Positions 7,902 to 50,687 of a stretch of 64,000 bases of DNA are shown in pieces. The notes under the pieces are model-generated. The model was not told the DNA's origin. It ran no database searches and was given only the letters and a program-made list of their open reading frames with translations. Source of the DNA: a virus; IMG/VR virus record IMGVR_UViG_3300029286_000037, positions 1 through 64,000 of that record; one strand, 5' to 3'. The translations under genes and the position numbers were made by a program. The first letter of the stretch is position 1. Each line of letters begins with the position of its first letter.

Positions 7902-8612
7902 TTAAACTGCCAAACCACCACTGGGTTTACCAGTAGACGATGCTCCCGTAATAATATTACTTTCCGGATTTGCTATTCTTGATATAGCATTCATATTGAA
8001 ATAGTCACCTGTTTCGATATAGTCTTCACTTGTGCTGGCAATGATATCTGTAACATTCACAGTAACATTCTCCTGTACAAGAGCTGCATCTGCAGCATAC
8101 GAAACACCATAGTCAGAAATCCAGCAACCTTCAAAGTACGTAAGGATAGCGTCAAGCTCTCCATTAATACCACCAACGGTCATACCAGGGGCATCCCCAC
8201 CCTTACCTAAGATAACCGCAGGAAGACGGCTAATAACAACTTCCTGTACAATATCAAAAGGCCATTTGTGGTGACGAAGCGATCTAACTATACCATCAAT
8301 ACCACCTTTATACCCAAAGACCTGAAAGATCATTGAGAGGTATTGGGCAGTACGGTTGATGCTTATAGTCATTGGCTCTGTAGCCCCAGGAACTAACTCA
8401 GCTACATGGTCTCCAAAACCGATACCACGAACAGGTTCAATGGTACGCGATTCAGAGGGGTCGAATGTAGAAAGGACCCCTATCTGAAAAGCGGTAGTTT
8501 GGTTTCCATCAGCCGGGATAGCGTAAATTTTATTTTTTGAACTTATGACCGAAGCGGTTTCGGGGGTTACCCCTAACCGATGGACATAAGTATCTCTATC
8601 TCTAGCTGCCAT
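7902..8612 (-). CDS. Tail tube protein
   Basis: A 236-residue protein transcribed two genes after the sheath, the usual sheath-tube order. It is beta-rich, beginning MAARDRDTYVHRLGV, with no membrane segment or enzyme motif. Features fitting a tube fold are the FQIGVLSTFDPSESRTIEP and GATEPMTISINRT strands, followed by a helix and a strand-rich C-terminal half. Size and gene order support the call. The only competing idea is a second sheath-associated protein. It would stack as rings inside the sheath. Confidence 0.75.
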   Translation of the reverse strand: MAARDRDTYVHRLGVTPETASVISSKNKIYAIPADGNQTTAFQIGVLSTFDPSESRTIEPVRGIGFGDHVAELVPGATEPMTISINRTAQYLSMIFQVFGYKGGIDGIVRSLRHHKWPFDIVQEVVISRLPAVILGKGGDAPGMTVGGINGELDAILTYFEGCWISDYGVSYAADAALVQENVTVNVTDIIASTSEDYIETGDYFNMNAISRIANPESNIITGASSTGKPSGGLAV

Positions 8613-8630
8613 AATAATTACTCCTTATAG

Positions 8631-9437
8631 TTAATTAGAAAAAAGTTTACTGAGTTCAGAAGCTTCATCAGCACCGAGCTCAAACTCATCCATAGAAGCC
8701 GAAAGCTCAATACCCTCTATGATTGAAGAAACGGGCTCTCTCTGTTGATCCTCTTTCTTTTCTTCATCTTTTGAACTTTCTTCAGCAGCATCTTTAGACT
8801 TCTCAGCTTTTTCTAAGGTCTTAATAGCTTTTGCTTTATCCTTCTTAATCTTGTCTGCTTTGATGTCAGCGATACTGGCATCCTTCTCGACTTTACCATG
8901 AGACTTCTCAACGATACCAGAATCCAAAGAGGTAGAAACATCTGGTACTTGCTCAGGTTTCAGAGTTGAAGCTTTTTCAGGAATGCCTTTATGTTTACCA
9001 TTAGGAACCTGGTTTGACTCAAGTTTCTTTCCTGTATCACAGCATACAGATTTTGTCATCCCGACTACATCACGAAGAAGATTGTCGACTACAGCTTTAG
9101 AAGCATCTTTACTCCAAAACATTCCTGCTGTTTTTTCAGAAGCTTCTACTGCCATTGGTATCCCCTCTTCTTTTTTAATTAATACTATTTTAGGCTCTGC
9201 ACCAGGAAGCCCCTCAGGACCCCCGACTGGGATAACCCCAGAGTCCATAGGCCCCTTACCACACATACAGGCCTCTGCTTCTTCTGTGAAATCAGAAGAT
9301 ATAACTCCTGTAAACTTGTCGTCAGACATCTTATTTAAGACATAGGACATAGCCTTAAGATCCCGATTATACGGTGTGTGACTGGCAAAGACTTCTGAGA
9401 GACCTTCCAATCTTTTTGCTAATGCTATACGATCCAT
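8631..9437 (-). CDS. Acidic/charged virion-associated protein
   Basis: A 268-residue protein between sheath and tube. The N-terminus (LAKRLEGLSEVFASHTPYN) is an amphipathic helix of a type repeated in several unrelated virion proteins here. The middle has a CMCGKGP segment, and the rest (about 170-235) is low-complexity Lys/Asp/Glu/Ala and probably disordered. A good ribosome site (AAGGAG) precedes the ATG. Function is not recognised; an assembly or internal head/tail protein is possible. Confidence 0.6.
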   Translation of the reverse strand: MDRIALAKRLEGLSEVFASHTPYNRDLKAMSYVLNKMSDDKFTGVISSDFTEEAEACMCGKGPMDSGVIPVGGPEGLPGAEPKIVLIKKEEGIPMAVEASEKTAGMFWSKDASKAVVDNLLRDVVGMTKSVCCDTGKKLESNQVPNGKHKGIPEKASTLKPEQVPDVSTSLDSGIVEKSHGKVEKDASIADIKADKIKKDKAKAIKTLEKAEKSKDAAEESSKDEEKKEDQQREPVSSIIEGIELSASMDEFELGADEASELSKLFSN

Positions 9438-9481: not shown

Positions 9482-12418
9482 TTAAAGACTCTGTCTCAAA
9501 TTCAAGGTCACCACAATCCAGTTCAATGGAAAAACAGGACTATAGTAAGCTTCTACATCAAGAGTACTAGGATCTTGATCATTCTGCTTTACAGTGATCC
9601 CTGTAAAATTCACAATGAGCTCTTTCTGTTTTAGCGATTTGAAATAAGATCCCAAAGCATCTTTAACCTGTGATTGAATCTTAGGAAGATTCTTCACACC
9701 GATGAATCGATCAAGAACTCTTCGCACACCCTGCTGAACAAAGTGCTTAACCTCAACGATTCTAGGATCGCGTGTCAAAGCGGTAGAGGTGTCCGAAGTA
9801 AGATAAAAAAGGATCTTTATAAATGGTGATTGCTCCTCGAGAACAGTACACCCGGCATTAGCAACAAGAGCTGCGCTGACGCTATCCAATCTCCGATATA
9901 GTCTCTTAAATCCTACGATCGTAGAATTGGTAAGAGGAGTAGCAATATCTGAAACAGGAGAAACATCCCGACCAGCCACTGCTGCAGCGATAATAGAACC
10001 GTCGACAACATACTCTACTTCATTTCCGTATGCATCAACTATCCCAACGATAGCACCGTCTGGGTATATAGGAGTAAGCTTCTCGGTCTTGAGGTTCTGA
10101 ACCATCTGAATCACTTGATCAGAGGTTGTCCCTATTGCAAAACCAATGATACTTGTTCTCTCACTCTTATAACGAATACTTGACTGTATTGCGTTTGAAG
10201 ACTTAAGATAGCTGATAACCTCTGGATTCGTGGTTAGGGACTGCATTAAAGCAGGTCTCAATCCATTAGGAAGAGGTACATTAAATGCATCGATACCTTC
10301 TATGTAATCTTGAACAGAGGCATCAGTTCCACCGACAGTACGTTTAACCTGCTTCAGAGCCACAGCCTGAGTCCCGTTTAAGAAAGCCAAGTTTGCAGCC
10401 AAAGTAAGTTTGTTGTTGATGTCAAGAGGTCCAAAGTACCGAACTACATCTCTCATGTTCGTTAAGAACTTAGCGGTATAGTCTGTCTTCTCTTTGTCAA
10501 AAGTAACATAGTACAGATCCCCGTTTGCTGGTTCAACACCGCTCTTATTGAATGTGTCAATAATGACAGTATCATCAGTAGTGTCTACTGAACCACCGCT
10601 TGTAGTGGAAACTGTGAGGTTAACACCTGGGATAACTCTTACTATGCTTGACGAAACAGTGATATAAAGCTGCTGAGTAGAATCTGATACGGTAGGATCA
10701 CCTATATCATATCTTACGATCGAACCTACACCAGGATTAAAAGCACCAGAATCATTTGAAAAGGTAACTCTGAAACCAGAAGTTGGGTCAATATAAGTTT
10801 TTCCTACATATCCAATATTCTTATTGTTGGCAGTTACAGACCCTGTTCTGCCCGGAAGAGTAAAGCCAGTACCATGAAAAGAGGTAACAGTGAAAGAACC
10901 ATCACCATGAAAAGTACAAGCAACTCTTTCTACAGAACCCTTAAGCGGATTGACTTGGAAGTTTGGAGAACCTGCCCCAGCATAAATAGGGGTAACAGTT
11001 CCACTGATGTATCTGACTTCCATGGCATTACCGCTGACTCTTGATGATATAGTGTACTTACCTACACTCGCACCACCGGGAACCTTATTAGTAAGAGTCC
11101 ACTTGTCATCAACAAGGTTATTCTCACGATACGTAACATAAACAATTTCTTGAAGAGCCTGTGATGGAGCTGCGGCAAGCGTAACTTGATTACCTTGAAT
11201 CTTGGTTACAGGCACTGCACCGGCAGTATAAGCTGCTGCCCAGTTTGCCCCGACGTAGGCTAAAATATCAGAAGGATCTTCTGTAGAAACTCCAAGTCCC
11301 GAACCATCAACCGGAGTTGAAGGCAGAGAAAAGACTTTATTGCTATTTAGGTTGACTTGTTCCCCATTAGCATTAGTTTGAATAACTCCACCAATAGTAA
11401 GGGGGTTTACTGGAGAACCTACCCGACCATAAACAAAAGTATCTGTTAATGATTCAGACACGTTATCAACAAGAGCCACAGCCCCTGCAGTATACAAACC
11501 CTGTGCAATATGGGAAGACTGTCCCCAATGGATCTGATTAGAACCTGCAAGAACGCAATCTTCACCGATGGAATAGTCATTTGTATCTTGACTCAAACCA
11601 GCTTTAACCAGTGCGTCCACAACAGCAGCAGGAAGGATGTCAAAAGTATCCTGCCAAAGATTCGTGAAGTATGTAACAGTCAGCGTAGAACCTATAGCCG
11701 GTGCAGTTGCAAGTGTGAATACTGCATCAGAACCGTTAAGGTGCGTTACTGCAACCTCTGCCCCATTTACCTTAACCTGAAAGACTCTCACTTGACGTTC
11801 GTACTCATCGCCAAGAACGAGTGGATCCGGATTATAAAGAATAGTGGTTACACCATTAATGTCTGTATCAACAGCTGATCTTCCGCCATTGTCCCCCTTA
11901 ACTATTCTTGAGTTGTGAACTTTAAAGTTGATTGAGGTCCCATCTACCTGAGTAGAAATAACTTCCTCTTCAACATAAGTATCACGACGTTTAAAATAGT
12001 AGTTAGCTCTTACTTCATCACCAACTTGTGGCAGCTGAACTAAGGTAACTTCCCCTGTTAAACCGTTTAAAGAGTTGACAGCAACATTCTGCCCATTAAC
12101 TGTAACGATAACACTACTTGGTGAAGTAGCTACTTTACCGCTTCCATCACCTGTTACAACAGGTTTATTTTGAATTACGAAAGAATTCTCCATACCTGTT
12201 GAAAACTGGCTGCTAACATCTTCGTCAAGAATAAGGTTATCAGAAATCGCTGATGACCCTCTTACCATTTCAAAGTTGCCAACTCTAACCGTTTCCGCAG
12301 ATACGCCAACAAAGGCTGGTATACGAATATCACCGGATGCTGTAACTCCAGCAGCCTCAGTGTTAGTCTTAACATATACACCAGGAAATACGAAACTTTC
12401 TAAAGGTCCCATAGCCAT
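9482..12418 (-). CDS. Tail sheath protein (unusually large)
   Basis: The C-terminal 280 residues contain the sheath-type core: DPRIVEVKHFVQQGVRRVLD, then a KNLPKIQSQVKDAL helix, and an ending in which a VEAYYSPVFPLNWI strand leads to LRQSL. The N-terminus (SFVFPGVYVKT) also matches sheath proteins. At 978 residues it is much longer than the roughly 400-700 usual. The extra length is beta-rich insertions carrying at least two copies of a module of the form VNG-x-V...LNG...FTL..AP..GS.LTVTY that also occurs in the neighbouring 476-residue tail protein. It forms the contractile sheath. The promoter motif lies 98 bases upstream. Confidence 0.92.
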   Translation of the reverse strand: MAMGPLESFVFPGVYVKTNTEAAGVTASGDIRIPAFVGVSAETVRVGNFEMVRGSSAISDNLILDEDVSSQFSTGMENSFVIQNKPVVTGDGSGKVATSPSSVIVTVNGQNVAVNSLNGLTGEVTLVQLPQVGDEVRANYYFKRRDTYVEEEVISTQVDGTSINFKVHNSRIVKGDNGGRSAVDTDINGVTTILYNPDPLVLGDEYERQVRVFQVKVNGAEVAVTHLNGSDAVFTLATAPAIGSTLTVTYFTNLWQDTFDILPAAVVDALVKAGLSQDTNDYSIGEDCVLAGSNQIHWGQSSHIAQGLYTAGAVALVDNVSESLTDTFVYGRVGSPVNPLTIGGVIQTNANGEQVNLNSNKVFSLPSTPVDGSGLGVSTEDPSDILAYVGANWAAAYTAGAVPVTKIQGNQVTLAAAPSQALQEIVYVTYRENNLVDDKWTLTNKVPGGASVGKYTISSRVSGNAMEVRYISGTVTPIYAGAGSPNFQVNPLKGSVERVACTFHGDGSFTVTSFHGTGFTLPGRTGSVTANNKNIGYVGKTYIDPTSGFRVTFSNDSGAFNPGVGSIVRYDIGDPTVSDSTQQLYITVSSSIVRVIPGVNLTVSTTSGGSVDTTDDTVIIDTFNKSGVEPANGDLYYVTFDKEKTDYTAKFLTNMRDVVRYFGPLDINNKLTLAANLAFLNGTQAVALKQVKRTVGGTDASVQDYIEGIDAFNVPLPNGLRPALMQSLTTNPEVISYLKSSNAIQSSIRYKSERTSIIGFAIGTTSDQVIQMVQNLKTEKLTPIYPDGAIVGIVDAYGNEVEYVVDGSIIAAAVAGRDVSPVSDIATPLTNSTIVGFKRLYRRLDSVSAALVANAGCTVLEEQSPFIKILFYLTSDTSTALTRDPRIVEVKHFVQQGVRRVLDRFIGVKNLPKIQSQVKDALGSYFKSLKQKELIVNFTGITVKQNDQDPSTLDVEAYYSPVFPLNWIVVTLNLRQSL

Positions 12419-12558: not shown

Positions 12559-13038
12559 TTAACTCTCTGCTATAGAGCCCGATGAATCAAATTGTGGTAT
12601 ACCCTTCTTTACTCTTTCCGTTCTATGTTCCTGTAATGCCTCTGAAAACTCTTTTCTCACTGATCTTTCTTTATTATCCCCAAGATGCATTATCGGACTG
12701 TATTTGCCATCAGCATCTTTCGGAATGTTAAGCGCTTCTGGGGTCTTACCTTTCCATCTCTTCTGCTGGCGGGCTTCATATCTACCCTTCCACTTCGCAT
12801 CATACCCCTCCCACCGCTTCTCTGACGCTTTACCTACTACCATATCAATTTCTTTATTGGTAGCGATAGTGTCTCTTCTTGAATCAAGTTCACTATGTAC
12901 CCCAAAGGTAGAAGCTGGTTTGCGTATTGATAACTCCCCACAGAGCTTACACTTCTGATCCTTATCCCTATTGATATAGGAACTTAGCTCCTCAAACTCA
13001 TGACCACACTTACCACACTTGTATTCATATAATGGCAT
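12559..13038 (-). CDS. FmdB-type zinc ribbon protein (copy 1)
   Basis: The start MPLYEYKCGKCGHEFEEL with C8/C11 and C30/C33 (KCKLCG) is the FmdB regulatory-protein family zinc ribbon. The remaining residues are basic, Trp/Arg/Lys-rich and predicted helical (about 75-110). The family is small and its biochemical role is not settled. A second FmdB protein is encoded at 31314-31754. It stands alone between two copies of the promoter motif, so it is probably a single-gene transcript or read through into the sheath. Confidence 0.8.
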   Translation of the reverse strand: MPLYEYKCGKCGHEFEELSSYINRDKDQKCKLCGELSIRKPASTFGVHSELDSRRDTIATNKEIDMVVGKASEKRWEGYDAKWKGRYEARQQKRWKGKTPEALNIPKDADGKYSPIMHLGDNKERSVRKEFSEALQEHRTERVKKGIPQFDSSGSIAES

Positions 13039-13144: not shown

Positions 13145-14575
13145 TTACATATACCTCGGGTAACCTATTCTTGGGTAGGAGACTTCAAAGGGAACACTGT
13201 TAGGTCTTATACGCAGCTCAAGTATTCTACCTTGATTAGTCAAGATATAATCCTTTGAGCTTACTACCTGGTATATCTTTGTATCAAAGTCCACTATCTC
13301 TGTAAGAAACGGAATAAACTTTTTCCACTCAGTCATTATCTGGAGAGTTATCCCGTGGTGATAGTACAAATCCCCTGTATTCTCATCATACGGTTCTTCA
13401 GATTCCCCAGAAGGATCCATTTCTTCTATTGTCAAACCCTCATCAATCAACAATAAACGCCTATTACCCCATATGTCTTCTATAAGGTGGTCTGTTAAAT
13501 TCGCCAGCTGCTTCGGATCACGGGCTACCACATCAATCTCAAAGGACATCTTATAGTGACCACTATTCATATTAGCCACAGGTTCCCGCTGAGAATAAAC
13601 AAGGACAACAGCCTTATCTCCCACAGTTACCTGGTTACTAAAAGAAAGGATAATCCCAGGGAGGGCTTCGTTTATATAGTGGAACTCACTGGGGATAGTA
13701 AATGGACCTAAAGTTTCCCCAACCCATCTATATGTGGCATAAAGAGTATTATTGGTCTCAAGCGGGCTTAGGAAAGTGATAAGCCCAGTTTGATCTATTG
13801 TATAGTCAGTGCCCTTTTCCAAATAAAATTTATTACTGAGACTTGTCTTCTTTGTATACAAAGTATCAAAATCACCATATAAGTTACCGTGAACTAATTG
13901 AGCTGTTAACTCAGTGCCGGTAGTCCTTGCTATAACTTTTTCATCTTTAATAATATAAAAAGGATCAATAACAAATTCTGTAGGAGTGACTATCTCGATG
14001 TAGTATCTCCCAGGGGGGGTTAAGTTACTATAGTAATAAGATACTGTGAGCTGACTTCCAACGGTCGGAGCCATAGACAGAGCAAAGGTACCCGAAGCCC
14101 CATCTAAAAACTCAGGGAAGACTGTTTGACCGTTTAGTAAAACGGAGATCTGCCTAAAGTTATCTGCAAGAACTGTGTTATTATACCCTGACAAGACATG
14201 CTTTTTTGATACAGTGAAAAATCTATTCGTACCGACAGACGAAGTCCCTGATATCTGAGATGATAAATCTTCATTCTTTTGATACCCGGTTAGATTATTA
14301 AAATCTTCCCAAACCCATTCAAGAAAATTTCCCTCAAAATTTTCAGCACGTGCTTTAATCGTGTGACTCTTCAAAACACCAGCGTGATCATCAGCAGATA
14401 GCTTTATTCTAGATGAAGAGGCATTCTTAAGGACCACCCCAATCATAGGGCGCTCTTTGTATGGAAACTTGTGGTAAACTTCTACCTTATCCCGAAATAG
14501 CTGATGCCTTTGAACAGAACCTGTCAATTCATCCATAATACGGGATTTTACGACTCTTAATAAATTATTTTCCAT
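13145..14575 (-). CDS. Tail/baseplate protein sharing a module with the sheath
   Basis: A 476-residue beta-rich protein. Residues about 143-185 (SVLLNGQTVFPEFLDGASG then FALSMAPTVGSQLTVSYYYS) match the Ig-like module repeated in the sheath. A similar strand pattern occurs around 250-285 (DYTIDQTGLITFLSPLETNN). The C-terminal part has a HYKMSFEIDVVARDPKQLA helix-strand segment of the kind seen in tail completion and terminator-associated proteins. Its place next to sheath and tube supports a tail role. It could be a tail terminator or completion protein, but I would not assert that. Confidence 0.6.
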   Translation of the reverse strand: MENNLLRVVKSRIMDELTGSVQRHQLFRDKVEVYHKFPYKERPMIGVVLKNASSSRIKLSADDHAGVLKSHTIKARAENFEGNFLEWVWEDFNNLTGYQKNEDLSSQISGTSSVGTNRFFTVSKKHVLSGYNNTVLADNFRQISVLLNGQTVFPEFLDGASGTFALSMAPTVGSQLTVSYYYSNLTPPGRYYIEIVTPTEFVIDPFYIIKDEKVIARTTGTELTAQLVHGNLYGDFDTLYTKKTSLSNKFYLEKGTDYTIDQTGLITFLSPLETNNTLYATYRWVGETLGPFTIPSEFHYINEALPGIILSFSNQVTVGDKAVVLVYSQREPVANMNSGHYKMSFEIDVVARDPKQLANLTDHLIEDIWGNRRLLLIDEGLTIEEMDPSGESEEPYDENTGDLYYHHGITLQIMTEWKKFIPFLTEIVDFDTKIYQVVSSKDYILTNQGRILELRIRPNSVPFEVSYPRIGYPRYM

Positions 14576-19946: not shown

Positions 19947-22358
19947 TTACAATTGTATCCCAGTAGCGCCTGTTATAGCAAAAGGTTTTTTTAATGTTAC
20001 TACCTTGCTAATACCTGTAGCACCAACTAATGAATCTGAAAAAACATTTATATTTAAAATTTTATCTATACCAAAGCCTGTATTAGTAGCTTGCATAACC
20101 CAGTTCGACAGATCCCCCGTTGAAAAAACATGGCTATAAGTCCCACGAAGGTATTTTCCATCAACAGAGATACTGAACTGGTTTCCCTTTATTATAAAAT
20201 TTACCTTTAAGTCAGAGAATACTTCATCAAGGGTGTGCGTACCAAGGACTACTTGGCTACTTACTTCATAGGTAACTCCGCCAGTATGGTACCCGTATGT
20301 TACCGCCATAAGTGCTCTGTTTATTTTTACATAGGCGCTATTATCATTATTTAATATTTTTATTACTAGGTTATCTGACTTGACAGTAATGAACAATTTA
20401 GCATCTATTCCGGAACTAAAATTAAACAACCCCATGACATTAGCAGGTGCCAAGAGACTGATACCATTCTTAGTAATCAGATAATCCCCTACCCCGGTCC
20501 AGGACCCATCTCTACCATTGCTATACAGAACACCATTAAGATCGATGTCTGAGTACTTCTCAACACCTATAAGGTGTGCTCCGGTGACTCCCCCAAAAGA
20601 AGGGTAGTATCCTGGTTCTACTAGGACATACTTGTTATTATCTTGAAGAGCCCTCCCAACCGTGCGGTAAGGGGATTCAAGAGTCCCTGTCCATGAGTCG
20701 TTACCATCTGGAGATATATATGTTAACCCTGTCTCAAACGTTGAGTGCGAGGGGTAAAATATAGCGGCATCATTTTTACTTTGGTTACCAACAATAATGG
20801 TACTATCACTCGAAATTATATTTTTTGTTCTGAATCTACTATAGCTTGACCCGCTATCGGGTATCTCATACAAACCAGTCTCACCGTTTTGAAAAGGAAC
20901 AAAATTTGTAGAGATAAATAAGTCATTTGCCCCAGCTCTCTGATACCCTCTATCTGGAGAAGCATACGGACCTGTCTCAGTTCCTGGATATGAAACATCA
21001 TACCCAAATTCTGACACATAATTTCCCATAGCAGTCTCTTGGGAATTAAATTCAAAAGCACCTATATCCCCCGTGACTCCCTGTATCCCTGTAGCACCCC
21101 TATGAAACAAATCAAAATCTATGTCACGATCGAAGGGGGTAACTTGACTTCTAGTGCCAGTATAAGCCGCAGTATAAGTTCCATCACCCTTTACTATGCC
21201 CATCTCACCATAGATATCATTCCACCGGTCTGAGTCACCTTTACCAATATTAGGGGAAGAAGCTTTTAATCTAAAGTTATTATTGCTAGGGTCCTCATAC
21301 ATTGCTGTTGAACCAATATTATCCATGCCGGTATCGCCCGTTGGAATAGCACCGCTCCACCAGACATCTACATTATCAAAATTATTATTTCTTATTTTTA
21401 CAGGAGTGTTTAAATAAATTCCAGGATTTATTGGAAATCCGACTTTACCTGAAATGCTATTTGAATCTACTCTGCTATTTTTATCACCGATGTTTTGTAA
21501 TCGGATTGCGTCTCCAGATTCAACATCCCCAGCCTCTGAGTACATTATCCTAACGACGTCCCCAACAACAAATTCACGCTCTAAACGAAGGCCTTGCCAG
21601 GATACCATAGACCCTGAGAACAGTACTGTGTAATCCGCCCCATAATTAAACGAGGGACCATCTACCACGTTGAATGCAACATCATACAGACCACCACCGG
21701 AGATAGACGCAAAGCCGGGGAGCTGCACCCTCATATAGAGGATATCAAAATCGTTTAAAGTCTTATATATTATCCTAAGATTTCTATCAGGATTAGCTAC
21801 CTGAGGTAAATCAAGAGCACCGTACACCGTATTCTTCCAGATATCCAACCGCTCTACAGTATTTACATCAATTGATCTTTGACCATTTGAAAAGAGGTTA
21901 GAACTTACGCACACTTCTTTTGCAGAAGATATTCTTATCGCCGATTTATAATCATTGAAAGAATTTCTATGCAGAGCTACATAATTTACAGAGTCTATCG
22001 CTACAGGGGTATCTACACTGTTAAACTTACATTCACGAACAATTAATGACCCTACACCTAAATTAGACGCGGAAAGACCTTTTGGTATGCTATTAAACGT
22101 CAGACCCTCAAAGAGGCCTTGAGCACCTGAGAGGGTTAAGCTGCCCACAACTGGTGAAGAACCGTAAGCAGCTTTAACTGTTATGTTCTTTGATATAGAT
22201 AAATCACCATATGAGGACCCACTACCAGTTTGTATAACAATAATCCCACCCTCATAAACCTTCGACAGGGCATAGGGTAGGGTTCTTACCGGTGAAACGA
22301 GTCCACCGGTATTTAAATCAGAACCATACAATGAGTCAACAAATACAGTGTACATCAT
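19947..22358 (-). CDS. Right-handed beta-helix fibre/spike protein
   Basis: The first 260 residues have repeating short strands and Asn/Ser ladders typical of a parallel beta-helix (ITVKAAYGSSPVVGSLTLSG, LIVRECKFNS, VALHRNSFNDY, VCVSSNLFSN, LDIWKNTVYG). A second YISPDGNDSWTG / YRTVGRALQD segment near 550 starts like another helix domain of the pectate-lyase type. A collagen-like GATGIQGVTGDIGAF stretch lies near 425, and FAITGATGIQL ends the protein. At 803 residues it is likely a host-binding or polysaccharide-degrading spike. Catalytic residues cannot be assigned. MM at the start leaves a one-codon uncertainty. Confidence 0.8.
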   Translation of the reverse strand: MMYTVFVDSLYGSDLNTGGLVSPVRTLPYALSKVYEGGIIVIQTGSGSSYGDLSISKNITVKAAYGSSPVVGSLTLSGAQGLFEGLTFNSIPKGLSASNLGVGSLIVRECKFNSVDTPVAIDSVNYVALHRNSFNDYKSAIRISSAKEVCVSSNLFSNGQRSIDVNTVERLDIWKNTVYGALDLPQVANPDRNLRIIYKTLNDFDILYMRVQLPGFASISGGGLYDVAFNVVDGPSFNYGADYTVLFSGSMVSWQGLRLEREFVVGDVVRIMYSEAGDVESGDAIRLQNIGDKNSRVDSNSISGKVGFPINPGIYLNTPVKIRNNNFDNVDVWWSGAIPTGDTGMDNIGSTAMYEDPSNNNFRLKASSPNIGKGDSDRWNDIYGEMGIVKGDGTYTAAYTGTRSQVTPFDRDIDFDLFHRGATGIQGVTGDIGAFEFNSQETAMGNYVSEFGYDVSYPGTETGPYASPDRGYQRAGANDLFISTNFVPFQNGETGLYEIPDSGSSYSRFRTKNIISSDSTIIVGNQSKNDAAIFYPSHSTFETGLTYISPDGNDSWTGTLESPYRTVGRALQDNNKYVLVEPGYYPSFGGVTGAHLIGVEKYSDIDLNGVLYSNGRDGSWTGVGDYLITKNGISLLAPANVMGLFNFSSGIDAKLFITVKSDNLVIKILNNDNSAYVKINRALMAVTYGYHTGGVTYEVSSQVVLGTHTLDEVFSDLKVNFIIKGNQFSISVDGKYLRGTYSHVFSTGDLSNWVMQATNTGFGIDKILNINVFSDSLVGATGISKVVTLKKPFAITGATGIQL

Positions 22359-26363: not shown

Positions 26364-26789
26364 TTACGCATTACCGTAATAGTAACCTGTTGACCCAGCA
26401 GCACCTGTTGAATACTTATCATTGGAAAGCTTATCCATGTAAGTATCGGTGAATCTTGAAGTACCGGTGTCGCCAATATCCTGACGTGGAACTTCATCAG
26501 CTGAAGTGTAACTACCTTCAGTAAGAACGAGCGGGGCACCATTACGTGCAGAAAAGGTAGCATTGCTGCTTGTTGTAGAGAAATACTTCAATACACCTTT
26601 TGCCATACTGAAAAGAACGTTGTCAGTAATTTGGAGAACTTTTGTCTCTCCCCACATAATATATTCATCTTGACCGCAATTGAAATTGCCTTCTTGTGCG
26701 CCACCAAGCTGACTTCTTTTATCTACGTCAGTAAAGTAAATCTTACCAACGTTTGTACCAAGGTACGCTACCCTAAGTGTATTAGCCAT
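26364..26789 (-). CDS. Abundant-type small virion protein, monocistronic
   Basis: A 141-residue protein beginning MANTLRVAYLGTNVGKIYF, Gly/Ser/Thr/Tyr-rich towards a C-terminus with Thr-Gly and Tyr repeats (STGYYYGNA). It has its own promoter motif 73 bases upstream and a strong terminator, an arrangement often used for high-copy structural proteins. No family recognised; fibre or baseplate decoration is possible. Confidence 0.62.
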   Translation of the reverse strand: MANTLRVAYLGTNVGKIYFTDVDKRSQLGGAQEGNFNCGQDEYIMWGETKVLQITDNVLFSMAKGVLKYFSTTSSNATFSARNGAPLVLTEGSYTSADEVPRQDIGDTGTSRFTDTYMDKLSNDKYSTGAAGSTGYYYGNA

Positions 26790-26862: not shown

Positions 26863-26878
26863 TATTAAGAGATTATTA
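26863..26878 (-). promoter_or_regulatory. 16-bp promoter motif, minus arm of divergent pair
   Basis: Minus-strand TAATAATCTCTTAATA, one mismatch from consensus, 73 bases before the 141-residue gene. A plus-strand copy lies only 18 bases away. Confidence 0.66.
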
Positions 26879-26896
26879 ACTATCGTAATTATCTAT

Positions 26897-26912
26897 TAAT
26901 AATCTATTCAGA
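26897..26912 (+). promoter_or_regulatory. 16-bp promoter motif, plus arm before the glycosyltransferase island
   Basis: TAATAATCTATTCAGA on the plus strand, two mismatches from consensus, 41 bases before the RHH ATG. It is the only plus-oriented copy found and points at the only two-gene plus-strand operon. Confidence 0.6.
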
Positions 26913-26953: not shown

Positions 26954-27130
26954 ATGGATAGAGTAAATTTTCACCTTACTGAGGGTGAGATACACGGATT
27001 GAAGGTCATATCTGACTTGACTGGGGTACCACGTGCCGAAATAATAAGACGCGCGGTCGACGATTATATCAATCGAAAAAAGTTTGAAGGTTTTACAGGA
27101 CTTGAGAATATCAAAGAGGTGTACGCATGA
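26954..27130 (+). CDS. Ribbon-helix-helix (RHH) regulator
   Basis: A 58-residue protein with an RHH layout: an N-terminal beta strand (MDRVNFHLTEGE), helix 1 (IHGLKVISDLTG) and a turn plus helix 2 (VPRAEIIRRAVDDYINR). A GGGGAGA site precedes the ATG by three bases. Its TGA overlaps the next ATG (ATGA), so it is translationally coupled to the glycosyltransferase and probably controls this island. It resembles the minus-strand RHH protein at 49016-49201, which also adjoins a plus-strand cassette. Confidence 0.75.
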   Translation: MDRVNFHLTEGEIHGLKVISDLTGVPRAEIIRRAVDDYINRKKFEGFTGLENIKEVYA

Positions 27131-30100
27131 AAACCTCAAACTACTTGCTTGGTTTAAATATTATTTGCGGTCCTGATGATAAAGATGTTTTGGACAGGTG
27201 TTTAAAAAGTTGTCAGGGAGGCTTATTTGATGAGATTGTAGTAACCCTTGCTATGGGTAATGAAGACCCAGAGATAAAGGCTTTAGCTGAGAGTTACGGG
27301 GCTAAAACATTTTTCTTCAAGTGGATCTCTGATTTCGGTGCTGCCAGAAACTTTTCTTTTAGTAAGAACACTTCCAAATACATTATGTGGCTGGATTCTG
27401 ATGATATCATAAAACCTTCGGAATATAAAAAGCTCTTGGACCTTAAACCAAAGATTAATACCTGGGACATTGTCGTTCTTAACTACGTTTATAGTCATGA
27501 TGAAAATGATGCCCCCGTATTAACACTTCCCAGAGAACGTATCGTAAAGAACTGTGCGCATATAAAGTGGCATGACCCTATCCACGAGTACATGAATCTT
27601 GATGTCCCACAGAATAAATTGCACCGTGAGAATATAAACATTGACCACTACAGAATCAGGATGCACAACCCCGCCCGTAATATTGAGGCACTTAAAAAAG
27701 TCTATGATGCAGGCGGATGCTCTGAAAGAATTAAATTCTATTACGGTAAAGAGTTGTCTGATTTCGGTATGTGGGAAAAAGCAATCGAGGTACTTGAGCC
27801 TTATATAAAAAAGGGTGCTGACTTTGCAGATAACCTTACAACAGCTTGCATCCGTTTATCCAAGTACTATTTTGATAAATCGGATTTCACTTCCGCAAAG
27901 ACGTACGCTTTAGAAGGTATCCGTTTTAATAGCATCTATGCTGAAAACTATGTCGTACTAGGGAACATCTTTGAATATGAAAAAGATTTTGACACTGCTG
28001 CTGCTTATTATTTGGAAGCGCTTAATAAGACGCTAGATGGTGGTATGTCTCAGATAGTTGACTATTACGGTTTCATTCCTGCAGCTAAATTAGCCCTACT
28101 GTACTATACGAAAAAAGAGTATGACAAGGGTATAAAGTTTTGCAACTTAGCTCTCAAACATAAGCCAGGTAACGAACAGATGGTTGCATTACAGAAGGTG
28201 ATAGACAACGAGGTAGCGAGACTATCAAAAGGAGCTCTGCTGCAGACACCGGATATCGAAAATTTGAAAGATTTTTTATCAAAATGTTCTTTCACTATGG
28301 ATATAAAAAATAATAATCTTGAATTCTGCGACATTCGTTTAAAGAAGATCGTGAATTTAAAGGTATCCTGGTTTATCCCCACATTAAATCTCAATGACCC
28401 CGGTGTCAGGATAAGAAGAAGTAATATCTGCTGTGAAATGCAAAAGATGGGGATAGAAAGTTCTATCATAACTAATTACTATGGAATAAATCCCTATGAA
28501 ATTAGAAACATGGTGGGAGACTCTTCTGTAGCAATCTTTACACAAATGAGTAAAGATGACTTAGAGATCATGAAGCACATTAATGCTTCAGGTATAAAAT
28601 GCGTCTTTGATCATTGTGAGGCTATTTTCAACTACCCCTTTCAGCGTGATTGTATGAATGAAGCAGATCTCATTACATGCTGTTCAACGAAGCTTATGGA
28701 GCTTACAAACGAACAGGGGTATACGCGTGCAGTAGTGCTTAAGGACGCTGTAGAAAAAACAGAAACCAATACCATTTACAGTGATAGGTATCCAAAACCC
28801 AAAGCTGTTTACATGGGCATGGGGGGCAACTCCTGGCTGGTTAATGATTGGTTAAAGGACACAATTGAGGAAGCTGGCTACGAATTAGTCACCATAACAG
28901 AATGGGACAATGCGACTAAACGTTGGAACCCAGAAACATGGGCAGAAGACATGCTAGAGTGTGACGTAGTACTCTGTCCTCAAAGAGTTGATGTCCAACC
29001 GGCAAAGAGCTCTGTAAAAGCAACTACTGCTATGGCACTCGGCTTACCTGTATTATGCTCCCCTCTTCAAGCCTATAAAGAGGTTGTAGTCTCTGGTGAG
29101 AACGGGTTTATCTGCGAGACAAAAGAAGAGTGGAAAGAAGCACTTATTAAATTGAAGGATAGCAATTTAAGAAGAATAATAGGTGAAGCTGGTAGAAAGT
29201 CAGTGGGGGAATACAGCTTAAGAGCTATTACAACACAGTGGCAGGAGAATCTTACTAAGCTAATTAATAATCAATTTGCTTTCCCAGAGCCTCCTGAGGT
29301 AGTTGATACAAAAGTTAGATCATTAGTTGATATTATTATCGCCAGCTATAATAACGTTGACTACTTGAAAATGTGTGTATCATCCATCCTTATGAATACC
29401 CTACACCCATTTCATATTATCATCTCAGATGGTGGGAGCGATAAAGAGACTTGGGAATATCTGTCAGCATTGAAGGGGATTACCGTTGTAGGCGACCCGG
29501 GGAAAAGGATGTCTTTTTCTGAAACATGTAATGCCGGTATACTTGCTTCGAACACTAAGTATTTTGTGATCCTGAATTCTGACGTCATAGTTTCAAAATG
29601 CTGGCTTACTAGCCTGGTACACAAAATGGAAACTGTAGATCGTTTAGCTTCTTGCGGTGTGCTTAGTAATTGTGATAGAGGCTGGCTGCATGATGCCCCG
29701 AATAAGCCTTCATACCCTATGCTCCTGGAGAAATCTAAGATAGATCTTCACCCCGCTATGAAGATCAACGAGATTAAACCACATGTAGAAGAACTTTATA
29801 AGTTTATGGAGGACTCTAATAAACAGCATAAGGGTGTCTTTGTGAAACAAGAATGGGTCGCAGCTTATGCCACTATCTTTGCACGTTGTGCCATAAATGA
29901 GGTAGGCCTTTTTGACCCCCTTTATAAGAATGGGTGTGAGGATCTTGACCTTATAGCACGGTTATCAAAGTTTGGGTATGCGACAGGACAGGCTATTGAT
30001 TCTTTTATATTCCACTTCGGCGGGATAAGTCGCATGGCATACCAGGATGAGAATCGAGAGTCCTATAACGAAGAAGACCGTGCAAACCATTTAAAGTACA

Positions 30101-31248
30101 AAAATAAGTGGGAAAAGCGTAGGGTAGTCATCTGGACAGGCCCCGCATGGGAGCCGTGGAATAAAGCCAAGGTAGATGAAGGTATGGCAGGTTCTGAGAC
30201 CTGGGCGTCATATCTAGCACGGGAGTTTGTCAAAAAAGGTTTTCAGACAACGATCTACAATGACCTACTTATTGAAGATAAAAATGGGACCCTCCTTGAC
30301 CCCGTTATGAATGAAGTAGGGGAAAAAATCGGGGATGTCATTTATCGAGACCATAAAAATCTTCAGTCTGATGTAGAATATGGAATAGTCGACTATTTCA
30401 TATCTTCCCGTTCTGTCGATCCTTTGAAAATGAATATCCATTCTTTGAGAAACTTTGTAATGATCCACGATGTCTGGTTATCACATGATAAGAAATTTGA
30501 CATTATGACCTGGCGAGTAGATAAGTACGCCTATTTGTCTGAGTGGCACAAAGAGTTCTTAATGCAGCATCACGGTCTTATAAGCGATAAGATGTTCCTC
30601 ACTGCAAATGGTCAGGATTTCGAACTTTATGCTGATGTAGATCGCTATGAAAAAAAGAATCAAGCAGTATACTCCTCAAGCCCAGATAGAGGGCTGTATC
30701 AACTTTTAAAGATGATGCCTTTGATTAGGAAAGAAGTACCAGACTTTGAACTAATCGTAGCATACGGGTTTTATAACTGGGAGACCATGGCACGTTCCCG
30801 TAATGATCTTGAAGGTCTAAGATTTATTGCGGAAATAAAAAGTCTTATGGAGCAGCCCGGGGTAAAATACGTTGGCAGAGTCAGCAAGAAAGAATTAGCT
30901 GAGTACGAAAAAGAATCTAAGGTATGGTTATACCCAACTTGGTTCTCTGAGACTTTCTGCATAACCGCCTGCGCAGCTGGGTTAGCTAAATGCGCTATTG
31001 TCGGTACTGACTTTGCTGGACTACAAACTACTGTAGGGTCTTCTGGTGTGCTTCTACCTCCTGATGGACTAAGTAGAAATGGTGAGTATCCTCAGCAGTA
31101 TATTGACAGTTTTGTTAAAGAGGCTGTAACAATGCTTTCTGATAAACAGTACCGACTTGAGTGGTCTGAAAAAGCATATAACAAAATGAAGATGTACAGT
31201 TGGGATAATATAGCTAGAGGTTGGATGAAGGAATTTGGTATAAAGTAA
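27127..31248 (+). CDS. Giant multi-domain glycosyltransferase (GT2-TPR-GTB-GT2-GT4)
   Basis: A 1373-residue protein. Residues 1-110 are a GT2 (WaaE-like) domain with WLDSDDII near 88. About 190-370 are TPR-like helical repeats. About 412-715 form a GT-B-like domain (CPQRVDVQPAKSSVKATTAM, GENGFICETKEEW). About 734-985 are a second GT2 (IIIASYNNVDYLKMCVSSIL, then VILNSDV and GCEDLDL). About 998-1373 are a GT4 (VVIWTGPAWEP, KVWLYPTWFSETFCITACAA). Such fusions make or transfer surface glycans. It might modify host envelope, phage fibres or DNA. No signal peptide, so cytoplasmic. It sits in a plus-strand island next to minus-strand fibre genes and ends at a strong hairpin. Confidence 0.88.
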   Translation: MKTSNYLLGLNIICGPDDKDVLDRCLKSCQGGLFDEIVVTLAMGNEDPEIKALAESYGAKTFFFKWISDFGAARNFSFSKNTSKYIMWLDSDDIIKPSEYKKLLDLKPKINTWDIVVLNYVYSHDENDAPVLTLPRERIVKNCAHIKWHDPIHEYMNLDVPQNKLHRENINIDHYRIRMHNPARNIEALKKVYDAGGCSERIKFYYGKELSDFGMWEKAIEVLEPYIKKGADFADNLTTACIRLSKYYFDKSDFTSAKTYALEGIRFNSIYAENYVVLGNIFEYEKDFDTAAAYYLEALNKTLDGGMSQIVDYYGFIPAAKLALLYYTKKEYDKGIKFCNLALKHKPGNEQMVALQKVIDNEVARLSKGALLQTPDIENLKDFLSKCSFTMDIKNNNLEFCDIRLKKIVNLKVSWFIPTLNLNDPGVRIRRSNICCEMQKMGIESSIITNYYGINPYEIRNMVGDSSVAIFTQMSKDDLEIMKHINASGIKCVFDHCEAIFNYPFQRDCMNEADLITCCSTKLMELTNEQGYTRAVVLKDAVEKTETNTIYSDRYPKPKAVYMGMGGNSWLVNDWLKDTIEEAGYELVTITEWDNATKRWNPETWAEDMLECDVVLCPQRVDVQPAKSSVKATTAMALGLPVLCSPLQAYKEVVVSGENGFICETKEEWKEALIKLKDSNLRRIIGEAGRKSVGEYSLRAITTQWQENLTKLINNQFAFPEPPEVVDTKVRSLVDIIIASYNNVDYLKMCVSSILMNTLHPFHIIISDGGSDKETWEYLSALKGITVVGDPGKRMSFSETCNAGILASNTKYFVILNSDVIVSKCWLTSLVHKMETVDRLASCGVLSNCDRGWLHDAPNKPSYPMLLEKSKIDLHPAMKINEIKPHVEELYKFMEDSNKQHKGVFVKQEWVAAYATIFARCAINEVGLFDPLYKNGCEDLDLIARLSKFGYATGQAIDSFIFHFGGISRMAYQDENRESYNEEDRANHLKYKNKWEKRRVVIWTGPAWEPWNKAKVDEGMAGSETWASYLAREFVKKGFQTTIYNDLLIEDKNGTLLDPVMNEVGEKIGDVIYRDHKNLQSDVEYGIVDYFISSRSVDPLKMNIHSLRNFVMIHDVWLSHDKKFDIMTWRVDKYAYLSEWHKEFLMQHHGLISDKMFLTANGQDFELYADVDRYEKKNQAVYSSSPDRGLYQLLKMMPLIRKEVPDFELIVAYGFYNWETMARSRNDLEGLRFIAEIKSLMEQPGVKYVGRVSKKELAEYEKESKVWLYPTWFSETFCITACAAGLAKCAIVGTDFAGLQTTVGSSGVLLPPDGLSRNGEYPQQYIDSFVKEAVTMLSDKQYRLEWSEKAYNKMKMYSWDNIARGWMKEFGIK

Positions 31249-31254
31249 CCTTAA

Positions 31255-31291
31255 TTTGTATAGGTAAGGACTTCTAACTTACCTATACAAA
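31255..31291. terminator. Bidirectional terminator between GT and FmdB genes
   Basis: A 14-base perfect stem (TTTGTATAGGTAAG and complement) with a nine-base loop, followed by ATTTTATTA on plus and AT-rich sequence on minus. It separates the converging glycosyltransferase and FmdB units. Confidence 0.82.
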
Positions 31292-31313: not shown

Positions 31314-31754
31314 CTATATGGCAGCTTCTTTAGCAGCTTTCCACTTTCGGTCATCGATACCAGATACTTTTGAGGTATTATTTTCTTTTGCAATATGTGT
31401 ATCAAAAGAAGAAGTACTCATACCCGCCTCAGAAGCTAACTTCTTAGCATCAGACCAGGTCCCTGTTTCTACTCCAGCAACGTTTGGCTGTAACTTAGGG
31501 CCTGAACCGTACCTCTCAATTTGACGCATTTCAAGCTCTGAGTTCTGCTTTCTTTTGTCCCGACTTATCTTATAAGTCTGTGCTTCAGTCCACTGTTTGA
31601 AAAGAAAACCACCATTAAAATTGCGGGAAATGAGTCGTTCCATCTTATCAGAAGACTTACAGTTGGAACACTGGATCTCAGGGTCTTCTTTGATAGAATG
31701 AACAACCTCATCAATAAAGCCACAAGAATTGCATTTGTAATCGTACGTAGGCAT
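31314..31754 (-). CDS. FmdB-type zinc ribbon protein (copy 2)
   Basis: The N-terminal ribbon MPTYDYKCNSCGFIDEVVHS with C8/C11 and C29/C32 matches the FmdB family, like the protein at 12559-13038. The C-terminal part is different, with a KKLASEAGMSTSSFDTHIAK helix-turn-like segment. It is the last gene of its unit, just before a terminator. Role unknown; both copies lie in structural operons, so an assembly function is possible. Confidence 0.78.
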   Translation of the reverse strand: MPTYDYKCNSCGFIDEVVHSIKEDPEIQCSNCKSSDKMERLISRNFNGGFLFKQWTEAQTYKISRDKRKQNSELEMRQIERYGSGPKLQPNVAGVETGTWSDAKKLASEAGMSTSSFDTHIAKENNTSKVSGIDDRKWKAAKEAAI

Positions 31755-39199: not shown

Positions 39200-39697
39200 A
39201 TGTTTTGCAAGTTTTCAAGAATTATAGCACTTTCAGTCCTCGTGTTAACCGTATGTAGCTTCTCAAAGGACGCTCTTAGTAACTATGACAACCATAAGAG
39301 CCTATACACGAGTAGCAAGTTGAATCCTTTCTATCTTGGGCCTATTTTTTCAACGGGTGCGGCTATGAAAGAGATAAATAGGTACATAGCAGATATGTCC
39401 CCAGAAAATATTGGGAAGTTTGAATCAAATAATCTCACGCTTATCGATACAGTAAATCAGGTGTTCTCTTTCAAAAAGGTAAAGTCTTATAAAGTCTCAC
39501 AAAAAGGGGAATCTTTCCCAATACTTTACATGAAAAGCACACTGAATAATGAGAAGTATGAATTAATAGTGGAGATAAAGGAAGGTTCGAACTATGACCG
39601 TATTATCAAAATATTTAAGGATGGTGTGCAAATCACTATGATCTTATGTGTCGACAACAATAACATCATCCAGAAGAAAGCTCCAACCAATATTTAA
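39200..39697 (+). CDS. Small exported (possibly lipoprotein) moron protein
   Basis: A 165-residue protein with a signal-type N-terminus (positive K/R start, then IIALSVLVLTVCSF). The LTVC could be a lipobox, though Val at -1 is unusual. The mature part is alpha/beta with no recognised domain. AAGGAG precedes the ATG. It is the only plus-strand gene in this area and lies between the capsid and 250-residue units, typical of a moron gene expressed independently. It may alter the host envelope, for example in superinfection exclusion; this is inference. Confidence 0.7.
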   Translation: MFCKFSRIIALSVLVLTVCSFSKDALSNYDNHKSLYTSSKLNPFYLGPIFSTGAAMKEINRYIADMSPENIGKFESNNLTLIDTVNQVFSFKKVKSYKVSQKGESFPILYMKSTLNNEKYELIVEIKEGSNYDRIIKIFKDGVQITMILCVDNNNIIQKKAPTNI

Positions 39698-39765: not shown

Positions 39766-40653
39766 TTAGCGAGCTATTTTTACTCTGGTAATTGCCAATG
39801 GGTTATGACAACCAATACCCAAGTTTTCGAATACTGAGAAACCAATACGACGTGCTTTTGGATCATCGGCACTAAGTACTGTGAGTTCAGTTCTTACTGG
39901 GATACGACCGAAAAATTCTGGTTCTGCGCAAACGTAAGCATAACCAGGGTTAACTTTTCTGCTAACAATGATCTGAGCACCCCAAACGGTACCAAGAAGA
40001 CCACTCTTGAGCAATGTTCCCTGAGTTTCGATATCAAGAACGTCACGTCCCCATTTTCTGATGTCTGCGAAATCCAGAGCATTCATGAAAATACGAGCAA
40101 CGCGAAGATCATGTGTCTCGATACGTGCGAAAGCATCGATCAGGTTCGCAGGAGTAAGAGGAGCAACGGCATTGATCTGTGCATTCACATATGCGCTTCC
40201 GATGTTATCGAAACCGAACTGTGAAACTGCGTCCATGACATCAAAAGCACGTGCATCTTCAGCAGCCTGGATCTGAGCCTTTGCTAAGTCCTGTGCTCTC
40301 TCAATAAGATCAAAACGGCGTTCTTTGATCTGAGTAAGAGGAAGCTCTGGGTTCGATGCTATTTCGAAAAGAGGGAATATCACACGGCGAGGTTTTGTGA
40401 TCGCCAGAATGTTTTCACCTTCTTCTCCGACAACGAAAGCTGTTACGTTAGGATCTTTGTCGTAAATTGGCAGTGCGCCATCTGGCAACTGCTCTACGAG
40501 AAAAGCCTTACGAGCAACTGACGTGTAATCTCTACGAAGACGTAAAGGCTGTATCATAGAAGCAGCAAGCTTCGCACGACCAGCAGCAGTCTTGATGTAA
40601 TCTCCGATGATCTGTTGTTTCAGTTCATTGGAAATTGCGTTTGTACCTTCCAT
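39766..40653 (-). CDS. Major capsid protein (HK97 fold)
   Basis: A 295-residue protein that matches the common phage major-capsid pattern: LVEQLPDGALPIYDKDP, a DLIERAQDLAKAQIQAAEDA helix, the ETHDLRVARIFMNALDFADI segment, GAQIIVSRKVNPGYAYVC and EPEFFGRIPVRTELTVLS. It has no long N-terminal scaffold domain; a separate acidic scaffold-like gene and protease-like gene lie upstream. It builds the head shell. It has a strong ribosome site (AAGGAGG) and is followed by a good terminator, as expected for a highly expressed gene. Confidence 0.9.
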   Translation of the reverse strand: MEGTNAISNELKQQIIGDYIKTAAGRAKLAASMIQPLRLRRDYTSVARKAFLVEQLPDGALPIYDKDPNVTAFVVGEEGENILAITKPRRVIFPLFEIASNPELPLTQIKERRFDLIERAQDLAKAQIQAAEDARAFDVMDAVSQFGFDNIGSAYVNAQINAVAPLTPANLIDAFARIETHDLRVARIFMNALDFADIRKWGRDVLDIETQGTLLKSGLLGTVWGAQIIVSRKVNPGYAYVCAEPEFFGRIPVRTELTVLSADDPKARRIGFSVFENLGIGCHNPLAITRVKIAR

Positions 40654-49515: not shown

Positions 49516-49553
49516 TATGTAGAGCAATTAATAACCTTAAAATGGAGAATTTT

Positions 49554-50687
49554 ATGAGCAAGCTGACCCGAACACTGACCATCGCGTTGACCACCGTAGC
49601 CCCCTTGTTTGCACAGATCCCGACTAATGGATTAGTAGCCTGGTTTCCATTCAACGGAAATTCTAGTGATGAAAGTGTAAGTGGGATTAAGATCGACTCT
49701 GCTGCTGCCGGAAGTCCAACTCTTGCTGCCGACCGTAATGGTGTTGCTAAAGCTGCATATGCATTTAATGGAAGTCGACAAGCTTTCAAGGCCCTTGAGA
49801 CAAATAAGCTTCCTTCAGGTAACTCTAATTTCACGATTAATGCTTGGGCTCTTAAAACAATGTCGGGGACACCTCGTACAATAGCAAGCTGGGGCACAGA
49901 CACAGTAGGACAAAGTAAAGAAATAGTATTTTACCATAATACAAGGTCTTCAGATTTATACCTTGGGATCACTAATGGTGTCGACACGATTGAATCTAAA
50001 ATAGATCCTAAAGTATACTCAGCTTGGATGCAGTTATCTGTAACCTTTAGTTCTGGGAGTGTGAAATTATTTCTAAATGGAAATCTACTTACCTCAAAGA
50101 CAATGACATTTAATGTTCAAGCAGGCAGTGTCTTTGGTATCGGCACAGATTGGTATTCAGCAAATGGTGGAACTAACTTTTTTGGTGGATCTTTAGATGA
50201 TATCTCAATTTATAACAGAACACTTACAGACCAAGAAATAACGTACATGTATACTTGTAAATCGACAAAAAACGCAGCACCAGCGATTACATCAGTAGCT
50301 CCTACCAGTGTAAAGGCTCTTTCATCTTACAGCTACATAGTGATCGCTTCTGATGTTGATAATCAGGCTGTAACAGTATCCTTTTCAAAAAACCCTAGTG
50401 GCATGGTTATTACAGGTAATAAGATTACTTGGACACCAACTAATGCTCAAGCAGGTAAAAATCAGGTGACGATCGTTGCAAAAGACGCTATGGGAGATTC
50501 AACAATTCAGACTATTGAGATCACCGTTGAACCTGTTACCTCAGTGATTTCAAAGAATGTGACAAGTAAGATCTCCTTAAACACAGTAGCTGCAGTGTCC
50601 TACAGTCTTAATGGTAGAGCATGTCAGAAAAATAATACCAGAGGATTAATCTTAAGTAATGGAGTTAAAAGATTTTCAGTAAAATAA
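49554..50687 (+). CDS. Secreted LamG/Ig-like protein with sorting-domain-like C-terminus
   Basis: The ATG at 49554 has GGAG six bases upstream, so I prefer it to the ATG at 49542; it gives a signal peptide (MSKLTRTLTIALTTVAPLFA). Next comes a LamG-type jelly roll (about 25-225: GLVAWFPFNGNSSDES, MQLSVTFSSGSVKLFLNG, DDISIYNRTLTDQEI), then an Ig-like domain (ITSVAPTSVKALSSYSYIVI ... NPSGMVITGNKITWTPT). The C-terminal SYSLNGRACQKNNTRGLILS resembles a type IX sorting domain, which would place it on the surface of an FCB-group host. It is on the plus strand, 377 residues, closed by a bidirectional terminator. Likely host-derived moron; surface role inferred. Confidence 0.78.
   Translation: MSKLTRTLTIALTTVAPLFAQIPTNGLVAWFPFNGNSSDESVSGIKIDSAAAGSPTLAADRNGVAKAAYAFNGSRQAFKALETNKLPSGNSNFTINAWALKTMSGTPRTIASWGTDTVGQSKEIVFYHNTRSSDLYLGITNGVDTIESKIDPKVYSAWMQLSVTFSSGSVKLFLNGNLLTSKTMTFNVQAGSVFGIGTDWYSANGGTNFFGGSLDDISIYNRTLTDQEITYMYTCKSTKNAAPAITSVAPTSVKALSSYSYIVIASDVDNQAVTVSFSKNPSGMVITGNKITWTPTNAQAGKNQVTIVAKDAMGDSTIQTIEITVEPVTSVISKNVTSKISLNTVAAVSYSLNGRACQKNNTRGLILSNGVKRFSVK

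Follow-up and report, generated by a model that had tools for sequence, protein, structure and literature searches.

The window analyzed here comprises 64,000 nucleotides (nt) of an uncultivated virus, nearly the whole of the 64,866-base IMG/VR record IMGVR_UViG_3300029286_000037. It encodes a glycosyltransferase (GT) of 1373 residues that carries four GT domains in one chain and is preceded by a small, overlapping RHH gene. Among huge phages of one little-known lineage, this enzyme is a conserved core gene of the virion block and not an acquired island. It belongs to the known GT2 and GT4 superfamilies; what is new is its architecture, its lineage-wide conservation in the virion block and the presence of inteins at two of its catalytic motifs in relatives. 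On balance, we favor the view that it acts late and in the cytosol as a protein glycosyltransferase, assembling a short glycan on a virion protein from host nucleotide sugars, with both the acceptor and the sugars being putative. Few phages are known to glycosylate their virions, and it is rare for the enzymes involved to be tied to an acceptor. A core enzyme with four GT domains and ten natural variants makes the question of virion glycosylation testable.

A Core Gene of the Virion Block

The gene and its immediate surroundings are arranged as follows.
26954..27130, plus strand: RHH (CopG-type) DNA-binding protein, 58 residues, Pfam PF01402
27127..31248, plus strand: four-domain glycosyltransferase, 1373 residues, ATGA overlap with the RHH open reading frame (ORF)
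26364-26789, minus strand: gene of the 141-residue neighbor
31314-31754, minus strand: FmdB-like zinc-ribbon gene adjoining the enzyme

Relatives were found by searching viral contigs with the 141-residue neighbor and not with the enzyme. All nine relatives, on contigs of up to 258 kb, encode the enzyme at full length (53-77% identity), and in eight of them it is flanked, as in the window, by the FmdB-type gene and the 141-residue gene. In the ninth (L004/L011), the upstream block alone is reversed. Compared pair by pair, the copies of the enzyme diverge in parallel with seven neighboring genes (r 0.75-0.96), and dN/dS between the L002 and L003 copies is 0.05-0.11 across the first four modules, indicating purifying selection. 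Because the gene has one constant position in all relatives to which the neighbor led and diverges in step with the genes around it, it is not an accessory island, although an earlier note on this DNA had called it an island; only its orientation sets this phage apart. The enzyme is co-oriented with both flanking genes in eight relatives, and the cassette is flipped against both flanks in the window alone. An invertible (phase-variable) cassette was considered for this arrangement. No inverted repeat of at least 9 nt is common to both borders, so neither site-specific inversion nor a repeat-driven assembly flip is supported.

Genes for terminase, portal, head protease, scaffold and tail sheath can be recognized within the window, together with a weak capsid match at 39766-40653. 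The tail sheath is closest to those of a 485-kb uncultured phage, the 309-kb Tunturiibacter phage Tunturi_5 and Bacillus phage G, and the window represents part of a huge phage with a contractile tail. Within the virion block, the enzyme gene lies between the tail sheath gene and a group of genes for the portal, protease, scaffold and capsid-like protein. Two further plus-strand ORFs occur in this otherwise minus-strand block, at 39200-39697 and 49542-50687, the latter with a weak match to a virion-protein family. The fibers that the earlier note had placed next door are not there: the cassette is flanked by the FmdB-type gene and by the 141-residue protein, which has no assigned function, and the nearest fiber or spike candidate (803 residues, DUF1565, 19947-22358) is about 4.6 kb away. 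Neither the 141-residue neighbor nor a 531-residue one has a match among 50,697 named phage records. A second FmdB-like zinc-ribbon gene (12559-13038, minus strand) adjoins the tail sheath.

Individual relatives differ in what accompanies the enzyme. In L013 a methyltransferase is fused to its C-terminus, and methyltransferases are a common glycan-capping activity. A gene 3' of the enzyme in L012 (5602-6204) resembles MT-A70-type adenine methyltransferases (DPPW motif, identified by eye). In four of the six large relatives the enzyme is the sole GT2 protein. The contig of L002 (IMGVR_UViG_3300046703_000335) carries a separate cluster of GT2 matches in several proteins at 27.7-35.5 kb, far from the enzyme; the cluster is not present as GT2 genes in most other relatives' records and is possibly a surface-glycan locus.

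Domain Architecture and Catalytic Motifs

The chain is divided into five domains, all on the plus strand.
27148..27666, plus strand: first GT2 domain (GT2-1), residues 8-180 (Pfam; AF2 model with Foldseek matches to SunS/ThuS)
27667..28311, plus strand: TPR/helical-repeat domain, residues 181-395 (Pfam TPR; all-helical in the predicted model)
28312..29292, plus strand: middle GT-B domain, residues 396-722 (GT4-like by profile and fold)
29314..30111, plus strand: second GT2 domain (GT2-2), residues 730-995 (Pfam; Foldseek matches to K4CP and GalNAc-T2)
30124..31245, plus strand: C-terminal GT4 domain, residues 1000-1373 (Glycos_transf_1 profile, Foldseek)

Pfam finds Glycos_transf_2 in two stretches (E 1e-27; 97.3 bits against a cut-off of 23.3, which places them in GT2), Glycos_transf_1 in two stretches (E 2e-18) and TPR, in agreement with the order of GT2, TPR, GT-B, GT2 and GT4 modules that had been read from the sequence alone. 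Glycosyltransferase families of PHROGs are matched along the entire chain. A 1373-residue ORF with such domains is not a matter of chance; it recurs, at the identities given above, in nine other phage contigs.

Catalytic residues were compared in an alignment of ten copies of the enzyme that differ by up to 49%. Both GT2 domains have a DXD-type metal site and catalytic acidic residues in all ten: D90-x-D92-D93 and H153-E154 are invariant in GT2-1, as are N817-S-D819 and E938-D939 in GT2-2, which is the most conserved module with 40% invariant columns. In the EX7E motif of the C-terminal GT4 domain, the first glutamate (E1275) is invariant, and the second is alanine in the window and glutamate in six of the ten copies. 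The middle GT-B domain has neither EX7E glutamate in any of the ten copies, despite its profile and fold match. A loss of catalytic Asp or Glu from all four domains, which the earlier note had named as the outcome that would count against it, was therefore not found, since the GT2 motifs and E1275 are invariant throughout. As judged from these residues, at least two and probably three of the four GT domains are active enzymes, and activity of the middle GT-B domain is doubtful.

Inteins at Two Catalytic Motifs

In five relatives the gene is interrupted by an intein. The L003 intein (8265-9432), which contains a LAGLIDADG domain, interrupts GT2-1 exactly at the metal site (YIMW^C...HN^CDSDD), and its insertion point corresponds to window position 27390/27391, after W88. 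Those of L004 (12520-13840), L015, L016 and L017 interrupt the last GT4 domain at EX7E (ETF^C...HN^CITA, with Q as the preceding residue in L017), corresponding to window position 30957/30958, before C1278. The Pfam model Intein_splicing scores 35.8 in L003 and 43.1 in L017, at or over the cut-off of 35.8, and 33.2 in L004, just under it. The N- and C-terminal intein models are over cut-off in L003, and the C-terminal model is in L004. C...HN/C junctions can be read in all five, with L015 and L016 being assigned by sequence only. The elements thus have the defining marks of inteins, namely a Hint splicing domain, Cys1, a terminal HN and Cys, Ser or Thr at +1. In a mycobacteriophage survey, which makes no mention of glycosyltransferases, inteins lie beside conserved motifs and are found mostly in proteins that modify DNA or act in nucleotide metabolism (PMC5050341).

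Through their positions the inteins show which catalytic sites matter, and they suggest a possible splicing-based control on a glycosyltransferase. Since they interrupt precisely the DXD motif of GT2-1 or the EX7E motif of the last GT4 domain, enzyme output in these relatives might depend on splicing. A bolder picture, which we regard as less likely than not, combines this dependence with a complete cytosolic glycan assembly line in one polypeptide. The enzyme would initiate on a virion protein and, needing no lipid carrier, build a chain of at least three sugars; in the relatives only its spliced form would be active.

Further insertions resemble homing elements. In L004, an HNH-like ORF of 154 residues (9634-10379) splits the gene within the middle GT-B domain into ORFs of 558 and 1260 residues, the second of which has its own start codon and a promoter-like motif upstream. 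A group I or II intron was considered for L002-L004, and there are no Rfam matches at gathering score; hence, the HNH-like ORF of L004 looks free-standing and leaves the gene divided in two. The HNH designation comes from inspection of the sequence, Pfam giving no match. In L003 an HNH-like ORF of 215 residues (13265-14000) directly follows the GT gene, what is left of an older C-terminus (NIFKEYSWGNIAYKWLDVLGVKK) lies beyond it, and the last domain of L003 is far more diverged from L002 than the remaining modules. The 3' end of the L003 gene thus appears to have been replaced, and the replacement looks linked to homing. Elsewhere on the L004 contig (IMGVR_UViG_3300028837_003833, 84299-87149), the tail sheath gene is broken into two ORFs, perhaps by a homing insertion or a sequencing frameshift.

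The Transcription Unit

The motif and repeat features around the cassette are these.
26886..26901, plus strand: promoter-like motif TAATTATCTATTAATA, 53 nt before the RHH start
26863-26878, minus strand: back-to-back motif copy serving the 141-residue gene
31255..31291, no strand: perfect palindrome with 14-nt arms, 3' of the GT stop codon, core TATAGGTAAG...CTTACCTATA

The underlying motif, TAATAATNNNTTAATA, occurs 34 times in the window at up to two mismatches, compared with 8.25 expected, and none of 100 shuffles gave as high a count. At up to one mismatch there are 13 minus-strand copies and a single plus-strand copy, the one at 26886 upstream of the RHH gene, which bears out the earlier suggestion that the cassette has a plus-oriented copy of its own. 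The same motif precedes the RHH gene in L002 (7762), L003 (7762), L004 (7756) and also L016. A palindrome similar to that at 31255-31291 is found in L002 (7785-7813) and L003, where it is part of the RHH leader, after the promoter motif and ahead of the RHH start. The window palindrome is a putative bidirectional terminator, RHH operator or attenuator, and remains a candidate for each of these roles.

Translational coupling of the RHH protein to the enzyme, as had been proposed, agrees with the exact coordinates of the two ORFs, which overlap by the 4 nt ATGA; RHH_1 scores 27.4 bits against a cut-off of 20.5. The RHH gene is present in seven of ten locus copies, all seven with the ATGA overlap. 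RHH proteins are often antitoxins, and the overlap of the two genes would suit a toxin-antitoxin-like addiction module. We consider such a module highly improbable, as the enzyme persists in L012-L014, where no RHH gene was detected, and is the product of a large gene conserved with the catalytic motifs of biosynthetic GTs.

A Putative Virion Acceptor

In the reaction that we propose, the N-terminal GT2 domain and the TPR scaffold would dock a protein of the phage, which is most likely a structural component of the virion, and attach the first sugar, which the second GT2 and the C-terminal GT4 domain would extend into a short oligosaccharide. The reaction would take place in the cytosol, with host nucleotide sugars as donors and no lipid carrier. 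The middle GT-B domain probably serves as a scaffold or in acceptor binding, and the RHH protein, whose gene overlaps that of the enzyme, probably modulates the unit's transcription. The protein acceptor, the virion target, the order of sugars, the late timing and the role of the RHH protein are the parts of this model that we infer. A soluble, late enzyme acting on protein is favored because of its position in the virion block with the motif found there, the lack of a membrane segment, and the lack of pyrophosphorylase or thymidylate-synthase-family matches in relatives. In the six large relatives, NTP_transferase, the family of sugar-nucleotide pyrophosphorylases, has no match, and sugar donors must then come from the host. 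Glycoproteins have been described in the jumbo phage XacN1 (PMC5852040), and mycobacteriophages carry glycans on capsid and tail tube (as cited in PMC11256854 and PMC12619734).

Comparisons of the N-terminal half point to protein acceptors. The nearest solved structures by sequence for residues 16-176 are GmaR (E 3e-10) and then SunS/ThuS. For the predicted structure of residues 1-728 (AF2, pLDDT 84.5), Foldseek places SunS/ThuS on top, followed by the TPR-containing protein O-glycosyltransferases SPY/OGT and GT4 enzymes. Membership in OGT is not claimed, as the SPY/OGT matches, at a root-mean-square deviation of about 20 Å, amount to a likeness only domain by domain. The SunS family (TIGR04195) was likewise rejected, at 25.3 bits against an equivalog cut-off of 350. 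Residues 729-1373 (pLDDT 74) match K4 chondroitin polymerase, polypeptide GalNAc-transferases (GalNAc-T2), MshA and PimA.

Shorter homologs are found outside the lineage. GT2-TPR-GT4 proteins of about 740-760 residues occur in many small phages (e.g., UOF78238 of MW202524; L028, L033, L044) and are collinear with residues 1-365 and 1000-1373 of the enzyme. Like the huge-phage enzyme they are encoded in structural gene blocks, a few genes downstream of the major head protein and beside tail-fiber or tail genes, but they do not have the middle GT-B and second GT2 domains. From this collinearity, the huge-phage enzyme looks like a GT2-TPR-GT4 protein with an inserted GT-B/GT2 pair, although the direction of change would be a matter of inference. 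In a scan of bacterial genomes, the matches listed are to Firmicutes proteins and concern chiefly the GT2-TPR part at the N-terminus.

These Firmicutes relatives, and the fact that the N-terminal module is closest to GmaR, a flagellin glycosylator (PMC9638930), speak for the main rival explanation, in which the enzyme modifies a host protein (flagellin, pilin or another surface or regulatory protein) and thereby alters motility or blocks a receptor. We regard this as possible but unlikely, given that the enzyme has the promoter motif of virion genes and is fixed in the virion block, and that its short homologs adjoin capsid genes in unrelated small phages. Moreover, no flagellin-like ORF was recognized near 80 bacterial homologs in a motif search, which is a weak test.

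Remodeling of host surface polysaccharide, leading to superinfection exclusion, is somewhat less likely still. GT2-2 and the GT4 domain do resemble K4 chondroitin polymerase, MshA and PimA, and a review ties GT clusters of jumbo phages to outer polysaccharides (PMC7824862). However, a 19-residue hydropathy scan found no membrane-like segment in the enzyme (maximum 1.55), and no flippase, polymerase or acyltransferase was found adjoining its gene. It therefore does not resemble the Gtr type of serotype conversion (GtrA/GtrB), in which a membrane-anchored GT acts with a flippase. Furthermore, the enzyme is encoded by one core gene, in contrast to the sporadic, polymorphic GT clusters of that review, and the extra GT2 cluster is restricted to one relative, at a distance from the enzyme gene. 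Of the two functions offered in the earlier note, glycosylation of the phage's own particle is thus better supported than host-surface remodeling, owing to the GmaR/SunS-like N-terminal half, the short homologs next to capsid and tail genes, the virion motif and the lack of a membrane segment or flippase; fibers as its acceptor are unsupported.

Several points weigh against a virion acceptor. The similarity to GmaR and SunS is weak, with a score far under the SunS cut-off. The relatives' records are fragments, so that missing sugar-nucleotide genes count weakly. Location in the virion block is no proof of virion acceptors, because phages place host-modifying genes there too.

Comparison with Known Systems

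DNA-hypermodifying GTs of phages are well known (T4; Pyle et al., 2024, as cited in PMC12619734), and the enzyme might by analogy glycosylate hypermodified bases of phage DNA. T4-like systems make hydroxymethylated pyrimidines in the same phage; in the six large relatives, whose records may be fragments, the Thymidylat_synt family (thymidylate synthase/hydroxymethylase) is unmatched, with positive search controls. The TPR and GmaR/SunS-like module is also unlike the T4 DNA glucosyltransferases. DNA is hence a very unlikely acceptor, and both DNA glycosylation and host-polysaccharide remodeling are less likely than glycosylation of a virion protein.

Virion glycosylation in mycobacteriophages such as Che8 (Freeman et al., 2023, as cited in PMC11256854 and PMC12619734) likewise involves phage-encoded GTs and glycans on capsid and tail tube, but relies on separate GT genes; the systems are likened here by description. 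K4 chondroitin polymerase, the best fold match of GT2-2, and other multi-GT chains share with the enzyme at least two GT domains per chain; the polymerase differs in making a polysaccharide and in having no TPR. The peptide S-glycosyltransferases SunS and ThuS share the combination of a GT2 domain with a helical repeat, and SunS is prophage-derived. The phage enzyme is far larger, and no bacteriocin gene was recognized nearby. GmaR of Listeria, a flagellin O-GlcNAc transferase and MogR anti-repressor, has an N-terminal GT2 domain followed by TPR, as does the phage enzyme. It comprises 637 residues with the anti-repressor domain at the C-terminus, and its TPR has been suggested to dock the acceptor (PMC9638930). 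In place of the anti-repressor domain the phage enzyme has three more GT domains, and regulation in the phage may instead rest with the separate RHH protein.

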